Below are positions 30,282 through 52,795 of a DNA stretch of 64,000 nt, in pieces (the first letter of the stretch is position 1; every line of letters begins with the position of its first letter). This DNA is from Chloroflexota bacterium (GTDB taxonomy: Bacteria; Chloroflexota; Limnocylindria; QHBO01). The translations under genes and the position numbers were made by a program. Location of the stretch: NCBI GenBank assembly GCA_025699005.1, contig JAILWI010000008.1:1-64000 (forward strand), written 5' to 3'. The notes under the pieces are model-generated. The model did no database searches. It saw nothing but the letters and a program-made list of their open reading frames with translations, and had not been told where the DNA came from.

Positions 30282-30331
30282 AGTCTACCGAGCCCCGCGC
30301 AGCGGGGACGTGGCCATGCCCCATCTACAAT
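30282..30331. promoter_or_regulatory. Divergent promoter pair of DMT transporter and LysR regulator
   Basis: Minus strand: TAGACT (30282-30287), 8 bases before the ATG at 30273. Plus strand: TACAAT (30326-30331), 8 bases before the GTG at 30340. A LysR regulator bound here could control both genes. Confidence 0.45.
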
Positions 30332-30339
30332 CTGGAGTT

Positions 30340-31260
30340 GTGGGTCGAAACGTGACGAGTCGTCAGCCTCCCGACTGGCTGGAGCTGCGAGACTTGCGCT
30401 ACTTCGTGGCGGTCGCGGAGGAGCTGAACTTCACGCGTGCCGCGGAGCGTCTGCACCTCGCGCAGCAGGCGTTGAGCTCGGCGATTCGCAACCTCGAGCA
30501 GGATCTCGGTACGCGCCTGTTCACGCGCAGCACGCGGCACGTGGCGCTCACCACGGCGGGAGAGGCATTCCTGGCCGGCGCTCGTCGAGCTCTCGACAGT
30601 GCCGCGGAAGCGGTGGAGCTCGTCGAGCGCGTCGGATCGGGCAGGTCGGGCCGGCTGGTCATCGGCTTCTCGACCGGTGCCGGCTCGGTTCCCGAGGTGC
30701 GGGACGTCATCCGCCGGTTCAGCACCATGGCTCCGGATGTCGACATCCGGCTCATCGAGCACGACTTCGGCGATCCCATGGCCGGGCTCTCCGATGGCAG
30801 CTCGCAGCTGGCATTCGTGTTCGCGCCGCTGGCCGACGATCGGCTCGAGGCGCTCACGATCTTCGCGGACACGCGCCATGCCGCCCTTCCGATGGACCAT
30901 GCGCTGGCCGCTCGCACGGAGCTCCGCGCCGAAGACCTGACCGGCCTCGCCTGGCTTCGGGTTCCGGCGCCCGACTCGGCGTGGACACGCTTTTGGTTCC
31001 GACACCCGCTCGGCGAGTCGCAGCCCGGCGCCGAGATCCGCACGGCCGACGAGTGGGTCTCCGCCATCGAGTCCGGCCGGGGTGTCGCGTTCACGATGCC
31101 GACGGTCATGGCCAACTTCCCGAACACCCGCATCGTGACGCGGCCGGTCATCGACCTCGAGCCCGGCGGCGTCGTTCTTGCGTGGGTCGGGGACGACGAC
31201 GATCCGATTGTGCGGTCATTCGTCGCGTCGGCTCGTGCGTTCGTCGCCGCCCGAGATTGA
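30340..31260 (+). CDS. LysR-family transcriptional regulator
   Basis: 306 residues. The N-terminal winged HTH is textbook: ELRDLRYFVAVAEELNFTRA, AERLHLAQQALSSAIRNLEQ, LGTRLFTRSTRHVALTTAGE. It is followed by a linker helix and a substrate-binding effector domain (from about residue 95). The effector is unknown; LysR proteins usually bind a small molecule and act on a divergent gene, here the DMT transporter. The GTG at 30340 was preferred because TACAAT lies 8 bases upstream. A GTG at 30310 is possible, but it would start before that promoter. Confidence 0.9.
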   Translation: MGRNVTSRQPPDWLELRDLRYFVAVAEELNFTRAAERLHLAQQALSSAIRNLEQDLGTRLFTRSTRHVALTTAGEAFLAGARRALDSAAEAVELVERVGSGRSGRLVIGFSTGAGSVPEVRDVIRRFSTMAPDVDIRLIEHDFGDPMAGLSDGSSQLAFVFAPLADDRLEALTIFADTRHAALPMDHALAARTELRAEDLTGLAWLRVPAPDSAWTRFWFRHPLGESQPGAEIRTADEWVSAIESGRGVAFTMPTVMANFPNTRIVTRPVIDLEPGGVVLAWVGDDDDPIVRSFVASARAFVAARD

Positions 31261-31359: not shown

Positions 31360-33477
31360 ATGACCACCGACACGATTGCACCAGGATCTCAGCACAGGAA
31401 CGAACCGATGGACCATTCAACCCACGCTGACTCGGCCCCGGCGACGGGCCACGCCGACCACGCGAAGCACGACAAGCACGCCGGACACGACCCCGATGCC
31501 TTCCGGCGTCAGTTCTGGCTCGTCGCGCTGCTGACCATCCCGATCGTGATCTGGAGCCACGAGGTCCAGATGTGGCTCGGCTTCACGGCGCCGGAGTTCC
31601 CCGGTTCCGACTGGATCGCGCCGATCCTCGGCACCATCGTCTTCCTCTACGGCGGCCGGGTATTCCTCGAAGGAGCTCGGACCGAGATCGGCGATCGGCA
31701 GCCGGGAATGATGACGCTCATCAGCATGGCCATCGTCGTCGCCTTCGTGACCAGCTGGGCGGCGACCCTCGGCGTCTTCGAGATCGACGTATGGTGGGAG
31801 CTCGCGACCCTGATCACGGTCATGAGCCTGGGTCACTGGATCGAGATGCGCTCGATCATGCAGGCGCGCGGCGCGCTGAGCGCGCTGGCCGAGCTCCTCC
31901 CCGATGAGGCGGAGCGCGTGACCGATGGGGGACTCGAGACCGTGAAGACGGCCGAGCTTGGCATCGGCGACGTGGTCCTCGTTCGACCCGGAGCCCGAGT
32001 ACCTGCCGATGGAGAGGTCGTCGACGGCGTCGCCGATGTCGACGAGTCGATGATCAGCGGCGAATCGCGGCCCGTGACCAAGGAGCCGGGTGATCCGGCG
32101 GTGGCGGGGACGGTGGCGGCCGGCGGCAGCCTGCGTATCCGGATCACGGCCGTGGGCGAGGGGACCGCACTGTCTGGAATCATGCGCCTCGTGGCCGAGG
32201 CCCAGGCCTCGAACAGCCGTGCGCAGGCGCTCGCCGACCGGGCGGCGGCGATCCTCTTCTACGTGGCCCTCGTAGCCGGGGTGCTCACGCTCGGAATCTG
32301 GACGCTGCTCGGCAACCCCGAGGAGGCGCTGATCCGAACCGCGACGGTCCTCGTCATCGCGTGCCCGCATGCCCTGGGCCTCGCGATCCCGCTCGTCATC
32401 GCGATCAGCACGACGCTGGGGGCGCGGAACGGCCTGCTGGTGAAGGACCGCCTGGCCCTCGAGCGAGCGAAGGACATCCGCACCGTGATCTTCGACAAGA
32501 CCGGCACGCTGACGCGCGGTGAGCCGGTGCTGTCCGCCGTGGCATCCGCCCCGGGCGTGGAGGACGGCGAGGTGCTGGCGCTCGCGGCCGGCGTCGAGGC
32601 GGACAGCGAGCATCCCCTGGCTCGGGCGATCGTCGCCGGCGCAAACGACCGGGACGTGGAACCAAGAACTGCCAGCGGATTCGAAAATCTTGCCGGCCGC
32701 GGGGCGAAGGCGACCGTCGGCGGTGAGGTCGTCCATGTCGGGGGGCCGCGCCTTCTCGAGGAGCTGGGGATGACGTCACCATCGGCGCTCGAGGGCGTGA
32801 CCGCCGGCTGGGCGGGGGCGGGCCGCACCGTCATGAGCGTCATCCGGGGCGACCGGGTCATCGGCGCCATCAGCGTCGAGGACGAGATCCGGCCGGAGTC
32901 GGTGGAGGCCGTGAAGCGGCTCCACGAGCTGGGCGTTCGCGTAGCGATGATCACGGGCGACTCGCAGGCCGTCGCCGATTCGGTTGCCCAGCGCATCGGG
33001 ATCGACGAGGTGGCGGCGCAGGTGCTCCCGGCAGACAAGGCTGCGGCGGTGCGTCGGTTCCAGTCCGGCGGCGAGAAGGTGGCGATGGTGGGTGACGGCG
33101 TGAACGACGCGCCTGCCCTGGCCCAGGCCGATGTCGGCATCGCCATCGGCGCGGGGACCGACGTTGCCGTCGAGTCTGCGGGCATCGTGCTCGTCAGCGA
33201 CGACCCGCGGGACGTCGTCGGCGCCATCGAGCTGTCGCGCGCCAGCTATCGGAAGATGGTTCAGAACCTCATCTGGGCGACGGGATACAACGCCCTGGCG
33301 ATCCCCGTCGCGGCAGGGCTCTTCGCGCCCTGGGGCTTCATCCTGCCGATGAGCGTCGGCGCCCTGGCGATGAGCATCTCGACCATCGTCGTCGCGGCGA
33401 ACGCACAGCTGCTGCGCGGTCTGAGGCTGCGGGCTCGGCCCGCGGCCCCGGCCGGTAGTCCGGTCGCCGCCACCTAG
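31360..33477 (+). CDS. copB: Copper-exporting P1B-type ATPase, CopB (CPH) class
   Basis: 705 residues. There is no N-terminal MXCXXC domain; instead a His/Asp-rich region (residues 20-50, with HADHAKHDKHAGHD) precedes eight membrane helices. The transmembrane metal site is ACPHALGL (Cys335-Pro-His337), the hallmark of the P1B-3/CopB class. The actuator motif is SGESRPV, the phosphorylation site DKTGTL (Asp379), the nucleotide-domain HP is in SEHPLARA and the hinge is GDGVNDAPAL. It pumps copper or silver out of the cytoplasm. An in-frame ATG at residue 17 could be the actual start; a CAGGAG lies 8 bases before the chosen ATG. Confidence 0.94.
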   Translation: MTTDTIAPGSQHRNEPMDHSTHADSAPATGHADHAKHDKHAGHDPDAFRRQFWLVALLTIPIVIWSHEVQMWLGFTAPEFPGSDWIAPILGTIVFLYGGRVFLEGARTEIGDRQPGMMTLISMAIVVAFVTSWAATLGVFEIDVWWELATLITVMSLGHWIEMRSIMQARGALSALAELLPDEAERVTDGGLETVKTAELGIGDVVLVRPGARVPADGEVVDGVADVDESMISGESRPVTKEPGDPAVAGTVAAGGSLRIRITAVGEGTALSGIMRLVAEAQASNSRAQALADRAAAILFYVALVAGVLTLGIWTLLGNPEEALIRTATVLVIACPHALGLAIPLVIAISTTLGARNGLLVKDRLALERAKDIRTVIFDKTGTLTRGEPVLSAVASAPGVEDGEVLALAAGVEADSEHPLARAIVAGANDRDVEPRTASGFENLAGRGAKATVGGEVVHVGGPRLLEELGMTSPSALEGVTAGWAGAGRTVMSVIRGDRVIGAISVEDEIRPESVEAVKRLHELGVRVAMITGDSQAVADSVAQRIGIDEVAAQVLPADKAAAVRRFQSGGEKVAMVGDGVNDAPALAQADVGIAIGAGTDVAVESAGIVLVSDDPRDVVGAIELSRASYRKMVQNLIWATGYNALAIPVAAGLFAPWGFILPMSVGALAMSISTIVVAANAQLLRGLRLRARPAAPAGSPVAAT

Positions 33478-33478
33478 A

Positions 33479-33496
33479 TAGTTGCATGTGCAACTA
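33479..33496. promoter_or_regulatory. Palindromic operator, MarR type, overlapping the -35 of the LLM duo operon
   Basis: TAGTTGCATGTGCAACTA: two perfect 8-base arms around TG. It covers the -35 (TTGCAT, 33482-33487). This form of palindrome is common for MarR-family repressors. Binding would block RNA polymerase. Confidence 0.65.
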
Positions 33497-33510
33497 GTGT
33501 GCGGTAGCAT
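33482..33510 (+). promoter_or_regulatory. Promoter of the LLM monooxygenase/FMN reductase operon
   Basis: -35 TTGCAT (33482-33487), 17-base spacer, -10 TAGCAT (33505-33510). The leader to the ATG at 33554 is roughly 37 bases and holds CCAGGAA before the start. Confidence 0.55.
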
Positions 33511-33553: not shown

Positions 33554-34675
33554 ATGCAGTTCGGAGTGTTCACCGTCGGCGACGTGACGCCGGATCCCAC
33601 GACCGGTCGTGCGCCGACCGAGGCGGAGCGGATCCAGGCCATGGTCGCGATCGCGCTCAAGGCCGAGGAGGTCGGCCTCGACGTGTTCGCCACCGGGGAG
33701 CATCACAACCCGCCGTTCGTCCCGTCGTCGCCGACCACGATGCTCGGCTTCATCGCGGCGAAGACCGACCGGATCATCCTGTCCACGGCCACGACCCTCA
33801 TCACCACGAACGACCCGGTGAAGATCGCCGAGGACTACGCGATGCTGCAGCACCTCGCCGGCGGGCGCGTCGACCTCATGATGGGCCGCGGCAACACCGG
33901 GCCGGTGTACCCGTGGTTCGGGCAGGACATCCGCAACGGCATCCCGCTGGCCATCGAGAACTACGCGCTCCTGCATCGGCTCTGGCGCGAGGATGTCGTC
34001 GATTGGCAGGGCCAGTTCCGCACGCCGCTCACCGGGTTCACCTCGACGCCCCGTCCACTCGACGGCGTCCCGCCGTTCGTGTGGCACGGCTCGATCCGCA
34101 GCCCCGAGATCGCCGAGCAGGCCGCGTACTACGGCGACGGCTTCTTCCAGAACAACATCTTCTGGCCGATGTCCCACGTGCGGAGGATCGTCGAGCTCTA
34201 TCGGCGCCGCTTCGAGCACTACGGCCATGGCCGGGCCGACCAGGCCATCGTCGGGCTGGGCGGACAGGTCTTCATGCGCCCGAACTCCCAGGACGCCATC
34301 CGCGAGTTCAGGCCGTACTTCGACCATGCGCCGGTCTACGGCGGCGGGCCGTCGCTCGAGGACTACATGGCGCAGACGCCGCTCACCGTGGGCAGTCCGC
34401 AGCAGGTGATCGAGCGCACGCTCGAGTTCCGCGAAGGCGTCGGCGACTACCAGCGCCAGCTGTTCCTCATGGACCACGCCGGCCTCCCCCTCGACACCGT
34501 CCTCGAGCAGCTGGAGATCCTCGGCAGCGAGGTCATCCCGGTGCTCCGTCGCGAGTTCGAGCGACTGCGCCCGGCGCACGTGCCCCACGCGCCGACGCAC
34601 GCGAGCCTCCTGGCGGCCCGACAGGCAGCCGATGCGCCTCGTCCGCAGCTGGCCGTGGCCGGAGTGGGGGAGTAG
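33554..34675 (+). CDS. Luciferase-like flavin-dependent monooxygenase (CE1758-like)
   Basis: 373 residues, TIM-barrel LLM fold. The N-terminus is QFGVFTVGDVTPDPTTGR. Family features include VFATGEHHNPPFVPSSPTT near residue 55, LSTATTLITTNDPVKIAED, LDMMG-like RVDLMMGRGNTGPVYPWFG and a C-terminal GVGDYQRQLFLMDHAGLP. It uses reduced FMN and oxygen. Three bases downstream is an FMN reductase, matching the actinobacterial CE1758/CE1759 LLM duo in which the two are always paired. The substrate of such duos is unknown. The ATG at 33554 was preferred to an in-frame ATG at 33482, which lies within the operator. Confidence 0.9.
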   Translation: MQFGVFTVGDVTPDPTTGRAPTEAERIQAMVAIALKAEEVGLDVFATGEHHNPPFVPSSPTTMLGFIAAKTDRIILSTATTLITTNDPVKIAEDYAMLQHLAGGRVDLMMGRGNTGPVYPWFGQDIRNGIPLAIENYALLHRLWREDVVDWQGQFRTPLTGFTSTPRPLDGVPPFVWHGSIRSPEIAEQAAYYGDGFFQNNIFWPMSHVRRIVELYRRRFEHYGHGRADQAIVGLGGQVFMRPNSQDAIREFRPYFDHAPVYGGGPSLEDYMAQTPLTVGSPQQVIERTLEFREGVGDYQRQLFLMDHAGLPLDTVLEQLEILGSEVIPVLRREFERLRPAHVPHAPTHASLLAARQAADAPRPQLAVAGVGE

Positions 34676-34678
34676 CCG

Positions 34679-35314
34679 ATGGATTCTCGCGAGCGATCGC
34701 TCGTCGTCGTCAGCGCGGGGCTCCAGCAACCGAGCTCCACGCGCCTCCTGGCCGACCGGCTCGCCGCCGCAACCGGCGCCGCCCTCGCCGATGCGGGCGT
34801 GCCCCTGCGCGTCGAGACCATCGAGCTGCGCGACCACGCGCAGGACCTCGTCAACCACCTCCTCACCGGGTTCCCTTCGCCGAAGCTCGAGGCGGCTCTC
34901 CGCTCCGTCGTGGATGCCGATGGGCTCATCGCCGTGACGCCGATCTTCAGCGCGTCGTACAGCGGGCTCTTCAAGCTCTTCTTCGACGTCCTCGAGCGCG
35001 ATCGGCTGGACGGCATGCCCGTGCTCATCGGCGCCACCGGTGGAACGCCACGCCACTCGCTCGCGCTGGAGCATGCCGTCCGTCCGCTCCTCGCCTACCT
35101 CAACGCGGCCGTCGTGCCGACCGCGGTGTATGCCGCGTCCGAGGACTGGGGGCAGTCGGAGCGCCCGGCCGATGACTCCCTCGGCGACCGAATCGAGCGC
35201 GCGGCCGGCGAGCTGGTGCGGGCGATGGCCGTGCGGGAGCGCGTGGCCACGGTCGACGGGTTCGCGGAGCCGGTGCCGTTCGACCAGCTCCTGCGGTCCG
35301 GCTCCGGCGATTAG
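34679..35314 (+). CDS. NAD(P)H-dependent FMN reductase (CE1759-like)
   Basis: 211 residues of flavodoxin-like fold. It begins SLVVVSAGLQQPSSTRLLAD, whose Ser/Thr loop binds the FMN phosphate, and has TPIFSASYSGLFKLFFDVL near residue 90 and LIGATGGTPRHSLALEHAVRP near 120, both typical of the family. It would supply reduced flavin to the upstream monooxygenase. It follows by three bases and is certainly co-transcribed. Its stop overlaps the stop of the convergent NUDIX gene by four bases. Confidence 0.9.
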   Translation: MDSRERSLVVVSAGLQQPSSTRLLADRLAAATGAALADAGVPLRVETIELRDHAQDLVNHLLTGFPSPKLEAALRSVVDADGLIAVTPIFSASYSGLFKLFFDVLERDRLDGMPVLIGATGGTPRHSLALEHAVRPLLAYLNAAVVPTAVYAASEDWGQSERPADDSLGDRIERAAGELVRAMAVRERVATVDGFAEPVPFDQLLRSGSGD

Positions 35315-52711: not shown

Positions 52712-52736
52712 GTGTTCCGCGGGGGACGCGCAGAAC

Positions 52737-52765
52737 GGCGGCCCCGGGACCGTCCCGGGGCCGCC
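52737..52765. terminator. Strong hairpin between convergent genes
   Basis: Arms GGCGGCCCCGGGA and TCCCGGGGCCGCC (13 bases, perfect) around a CCG loop. Lies between the stops of the deazaflavin protein (52711) and the CHRD protein (52796, minus). A bidirectional terminator is the natural reading, though no T-tract follows. Confidence 0.6.
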
Positions 52766-52795
52766 GCCGCGTGAGAGGCAGATGAACGGCGAGCG

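Follow-up and report, generated by a model that had tools for sequence, protein, structure and literature searches.

A putative RosR-like MarR operator over the promoter of a luciferase-like monooxygenase/FMN reductase operon in Chloroflexota

The window (the whole 64,000-nt stretch of DNA that was analysed) contains a luciferase-like (LLM) monooxygenase gene with an adjacent FMN reductase gene, a pair that we call the duo. The two proteins scored above the cut-offs of models TIGR04036 and TIGR04037, which places them in the CE1758 and CE1759 families; we know of no substrate for any pair of this type. The features of the locus are as follows.

30310-31260, same strand as the duo, about 2.2 kb upstream of the operator: LysR gene (profile match)
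31360-33477, plus strand: heavy-metal P-type ATPase gene, given for context only, ending 1 bp before the operator (profile match)
33479-33496, strandless: putative operator palindrome, TAGTTGCA-TG-TGCAACTA (inverted-repeat search and conservation)
33482-33487, plus strand: putative -35 element TTGCAT, within the operator (left arm and centre; from sequence, register conserved in five LLM promoters)
33505-33510, plus strand: putative -10 element TAGCAT, after a 17-bp spacer (from sequence, TAnnnT register in five of five site-bearing LLM promoters)
33554-34675, plus strand: CE1758-family FMN-dependent LLM monooxygenase, TIGR04036 (709.8 bits, cut-off 479.1; Pfam Bac_luciferase)
34679-35314, plus strand: CE1759-family FMN reductase, partner of the monooxygenase, TIGR04037 (277.1 bits, cut-off 175.9)

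Our genome collection yielded at least 582 confirmed relatives of the monooxygenase; nearly all of the best 80 were actinobacterial, and a reductase was detected downstream of the monooxygenase in 66 of these best 80 loci. A mechanical list of open reading frames starts the monooxygenase gene at TTG 33482, by which the operator would fall inside the gene. We place the start at ATG 33554 instead, because the alignment to TIGR04036 runs from the first residue of that protein and MQFG opens most orthologues; the operator then begins 1 base past the ATPase stop codon and lies 57 bp upstream of the ATG.

The palindrome that the earlier note had described as a perfect operator is confirmed: the plus strand reads TAGTTGCATGTGCAACTA at 33479-33496. 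Perfection holds for the two 8-bp arms, which are 100% complementary, but not for the 2-nt TG centre, leaving 16 of 18 positions palindromic. Palindromy by itself is weak evidence, since this GC-rich window has 22 inverted repeats with spacers of 0-6 nt and perfectly matched arms of at least 8 bp; the case for an operator is carried by conservation and location. With up to two mismatches allowed, the window has a single TAGTTG-N6-CAACTA match, where 0.06 would be expected, and the window site is the only exact copy of TAGTTGCATGTGCAACTA in the 2.57-Mb genome. A genome search with a TTGC-core pattern at two mismatches was uninformative (36 matches, with 291 for a control pattern). Elsewhere in the window, a perfect 15-bp inverted repeat with a 1-nt centre, CGGCGGCCCCGGGACCGTCCCGGGGCCGCCG, lies at 52736-52766.

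The earlier note had also placed the operator over the -35 element, with the -10 element TAGCAT following at 17 bases, and here the coordinates fit. TTGCAT, the 17 bases and TAGCAT would form a weak sigma-70-type promoter: the hexamers match consensus at only 3 of 6 (-35) and 4 of 6 (-10) positions, which is why a strict sigma-70 scan called no promoter at 33482-33510. The arrangement recurs nonetheless, a TAnnnT hexamer starting 8-9 nt past the palindrome in all five site-bearing LLM promoters that were examined (TAGCAT in the window; TAGGCT, TAAGGT, TATCCT and TATGAT among relatives G003, G045, G111 and Chloroflexi bacterium RBG_16_72_14), which favours the note's placing of the operator over the -35. 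The duo may also receive some read-through transcription, because the ATPase gene ends directly upstream and no terminator was detected between the two.

Conservation upstream of orthologous duos, which the earlier note had put forward as a check, was assessed in the 120-bp stretches that precede orthologous monooxygenase genes, 74 of them after redundancy was removed. Fifty-two carried TAGTTG-N6-CAACTA at nine or more of its 12 arm positions, where dinucleotide-preserving shuffles gave a mean of 0.9 and a maximum of 3, and this argues that the conservation is not due to chance; intragenic and distal control stretches had no site at that threshold. Individual duo sites read TAGTTGACGATGCAACTA (G003), TAGTTGCGTACGCAACGA (G045), TAGTTGACGACGCAACTA (G111) and TGGTTGACTGTGCAACTA (RBG_16_72_14), of which that of G111 was located through the site itself and hence is not an independent count. 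The site is not universal at the duo, since two of the seven relatives examined within the class, G033 and G051, lack it there, though they have the MarR gene treated below. The arrangement is conserved across two bacterial phyla. A chance repeat, or a structural feature such as a hairpin or the terminator of the ATPase gene, might likewise begin 1 bp after the ATPase stop codon, and the window has no shortage of perfect 8-bp arms; the strong, sequence-specific conservation at duo promoters in unrelated genomic contexts speaks against any such origin, which we hold to be extremely improbable. The terminator reading in particular was rejected, as none was detected, the loop would have 2 nt and there is no T-run.

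All MarR_2 matches of the genome lie on other contigs, in keeping with the earlier note's remark that the window holds no repressor gene, and a MarR gene near the duo was absent from all four related loci and present in just 3-4 of the best 80 homologous loci. In Streptomonospora and Actinopolyspora (L120 3060-3818 and L122 3264-3800) a MarR gene does immediately precede the LLM duo and is read in the same direction, and a TAGTTAAAATTTGAA-type site separates the two, a cis-encoded version of such control. The LysR gene of the window is well placed in that it lies some 2.2 kb upstream on the same strand, but the palindrome lacks the T-N11-A spacing that marks LysR boxes, no LysR orthologue accompanies the duo in the four related loci, and the sites track MarR genes instead; we rejected it as the regulator, a role that it has scarcely any chance of filling.

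A genome scan for further copies of the palindrome and for a MarR gene with the same site, both proposed in the earlier note, led outside the window. Allowing one mismatch, TAGTTG-N6-CAACTA occurs at only three sites in the whole 2.57-Mb assembly, all in promoter positions: at the duo, in an intergenic region between a MarR and a YceI gene, and upstream of a class-III aminotransferase gene. The MarR gene (contig C1, about 206.2-206.7 kb; hereafter C1 MarR) includes the best MarR_2 match of the genome (C1:206398-206580) and is divergent from the YceI gene, the region between them holding TAGTTGCGTCAGCAACCA and TTGTTGCACAGGCAATCA. The third site, TAGTTGCACACGCAACGA at C1:763484-763501 (L005 1500-1517), stands 28 bp before the ATG of the aminotransferase gene, a probable extra regulon member. 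Two further matches with two mismatches were set aside as probable chance, that at C26:144.9 kb because no plausible ORF start adjoins it and that at C1:558.9 kb because it lies inside a long reading frame. Since one of only three sites in the genome lies in the MarR/YceI intergenic region, the regulator missing from the window has probably been found at C1 near 206 kb.

C1 MarR, a protein of 150 aa, belongs to the MarR family by its domain models (PF12802, 56 bits, cut-off 27; PF01047, 42 bits, cut-off 24.6) and by the inverted repeats of 16-20 bp present at its own promoter and at those of its targets. We compared 25 orthologues across the class, counting C1 MarR itself. Of these, 22 carry the site once or more upstream of their own gene; 11 carry it twice, and in nine of the 11 the copies stand 27-28 bp apart, a pairing that suggests a fixed helical phase between two bound dimers. 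Loci at which operator pairs 27-28 bp apart, start to start, accompany MarR genes are L167, L170, L175, L178, L181, L185, L188, L190 and L191. Divergence from a YceI gene is seen in 11 of the 25. C1 MarR has two cysteines, and the one in the wing, typically within LVxRxxCxxDxRG, is kept in all 25 orthologues as the only invariant cysteine. The nearest solved structures by sequence are PDB 3zmd (E 5.5e-27) and 3zpl (E 2.6e-25), which we take to be AbsC-like and SCO3205-like MarR proteins of Streptomyces; the wing cysteine is common to them and to our family (CESDRRG / CPSDKRG), the comparison being by sequence only.

A genuine MarR operator might instead be bound by another paralogue, such as those at C1:493 kb and C1:657 kb, or by a regulator in the unassembled 5% of the genome. 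There are several further MarR_2 matches to choose from, sites of similar form differ between clades only in their centre, and G003 has the duo site and no clear orthologue of C1 MarR, in an assembly that is only 83% complete. We nonetheless consider this unlikely, given that across the genome a matching site is found at the 206-kb MarR gene and at no other MarR gene, and that MarR orthologues throughout the class keep this site for their predicted autoregulation. The proposal of a MarR-type operator whose regulator is encoded elsewhere is thus supported, by a MarR gene bearing the site and by conserved sites of autoregulatory type.

To gauge the reach of the site, 177 genomes of the class were searched for exact copies of TAGTTGCNNNNGCAACTA and TAGTTGANNNNGCAACTA. 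These preceded genes for pirin (11 loci), LUD-domain proteins (five loci, making them recurrent targets), MarR (four), the LLM duo (three), and YceI, DoxX and F420H2-dependent quinone reductase (two each); representative members of these families were domain-checked and the remainder assigned by eye from translations. At L160 and L161, in genus g17 of the class, MarR and LUD genes diverge with one or two exact operators between them. The trans-acting regulon that the earlier note had allowed for is supported, and its pirin, LUD, DoxX, YceI and quinone reductase members look like a coherent redox or electrophile-stress set rather than a catabolic pathway. This bears on the nature of the signal. 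Many MarR proteins sense ligands, and among LLM/FMN-reductase pairs there are catabolic monooxygenases of sulfonates or chelates; by that token the operator could be real and the duo catabolic, with a small ligand (an aromatic compound or the enzyme's substrate) as the signal in place of oxidation. Against this possibility, to which we give some weight though well short of an even chance, stand the co-regulated genes, which make up no pathway, and the invariant wing cysteine together with the precedent of RosR (PMC7764795, PMC5401885).

The regulon can further be identified as RosR-like. RosR (Cg1324) of Corynebacterium glutamicum is said, in work of Bussmann and colleagues from 2010, to have as its consensus an 18-bp inverted repeat, TTGTTGAYRYRTCAACWA, and its targets reportedly include monooxygenases and FMN reductases. 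The window site has its arms in common with this reported consensus and differs in the A at position 2 and the C/G at positions 7 and 12, its own arms and centre being TAGTTGC-N4-GCAACTA. In Mycobacteriaceae genomes of 2.3-3.4 Mb, most of which are probably from Corynebacterium, 20 of 25 non-redundant duo promoters matched TTGTTGAYRYRTCAACWA at 14 or more of 18 positions, against 0.2 in shuffles (e.g., TTGTTGACATATCACCAA and GTGTTGACATGTCAACAA). Sites of one form were likewise found at both MarR genes and duos in other actinobacteria: TAGTTGAGCGTTCAACTA at MarR and TAGTTGACGCGTCAACTA at the duo in Micromonospora, TAGTTGAATGTTCAACAT at MarR/pirin and TAGTTGAAATTTCCACTA at the duo in Actinomadura craniellae, and TAGTTGACGAAGCAAGTA at MarR/YceI and TAGTTGCATAGGCAATTA at the duo in Virgisporangium. 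The many other MarR paralogues of those genomes had no such site.

Further likenesses concern gene order. RosR, a MarR regulator that responds to H2O2 and acts in oxidative stress, is encoded divergently from a regulated neighbouring gene, as is C1 MarR; the gene adjoining rosR, cg1322, is proposed to specify a secreted protein that binds octaprenyl pyrophosphate (PMC5401885) and is likely YceI-like, and a YceI (polyisoprenoid-binding) gene adjoins the regulator here, in this genome and in 11 of the 25 orthologues. The rosR gene carries two sites for RosR itself (PMC7764795), matching the double sites of C1 MarR in this genome and in 11 of 25 orthologues, and RosR represses a thiol transferase gene (PMC6815410). 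An operator at an LLM monooxygenase and FMN reductase is a further point in common, given the targets reported for RosR of C. glutamicum. As to differences, RosR has three cysteines (Cys64, Cys92 and Cys151) where C1 MarR has two, the targets in sister genomes here include pirin, LUD, DoxX and F420H2-quinone reductase, and the host is a member of the Chloroflexota (inferred from its close kinship to RBG_16_72_14) and not an actinobacterium. From the neighbouring gene, the double sites and the type of target, C1 MarR is probably a relative of RosR that works like it, and by the same analogy the regulon would be a RosR-like oxidative or electrophile-stress regulon of an already known kind; in this lineage it is apparently not described in the open-access literature that we searched. 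MhqR of Staphylococcus aureus, a MarR repressor of redox enzymes against quinones, is also similar and has a different gene set from the regulon here, a comparison by description only (PMC12893000).

Our favoured reading, at a probability of roughly 0.75, is that a RosR-like MarR dimer, whose gene lies in trans at about C1 206.2-206.7 kb, has the palindrome as its operator, represses the duo and is released by oxidation or alkylation. The sequences support the site, its -35 register, the candidate repressor and the common regulon; MarR binding, repression and a redox or electrophile signal are what we infer from them. The dimer would bind over the -35 element and block RNA polymerase, keeping the monooxygenase/FMN reductase operon repressed; its oxidation or alkylation, most likely at the wing cysteine, would release it and so induce the duo, the YceI gene, the repressor gene itself and the class-III aminotransferase gene. 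Points that weigh against it are the MarR genes without a duo site in G033 and G051, the other MarR proteins of the genome, the site without a clear MarR orthologue in G003, possible read-through from the ATPase gene, and the two cysteines rather than three.

More tentatively, and at somewhat less than even odds, these observations may reflect an ancient RosR-like redox MarR regulon common to Actinobacteria and this second phylum, a single programme of quinone/electrophile detoxification made up of the duo, pirin, YceI, DoxX, LUD proteins and F420H2-quinone reductases. If that is true, the substrate of the orphan duo would be an oxidized quinone-like or isoprenoid-derived metabolite. Pairs of the CE1758/CE1759 type are very widespread in actinobacteria, and a conserved redox-stress operator in two lineages, together with a named candidate repressor and a set of co-regulated genes, gives a testable stress-response hypothesis for this orphan monooxygenase and would extend the RosR type of circuit beyond Corynebacterium.
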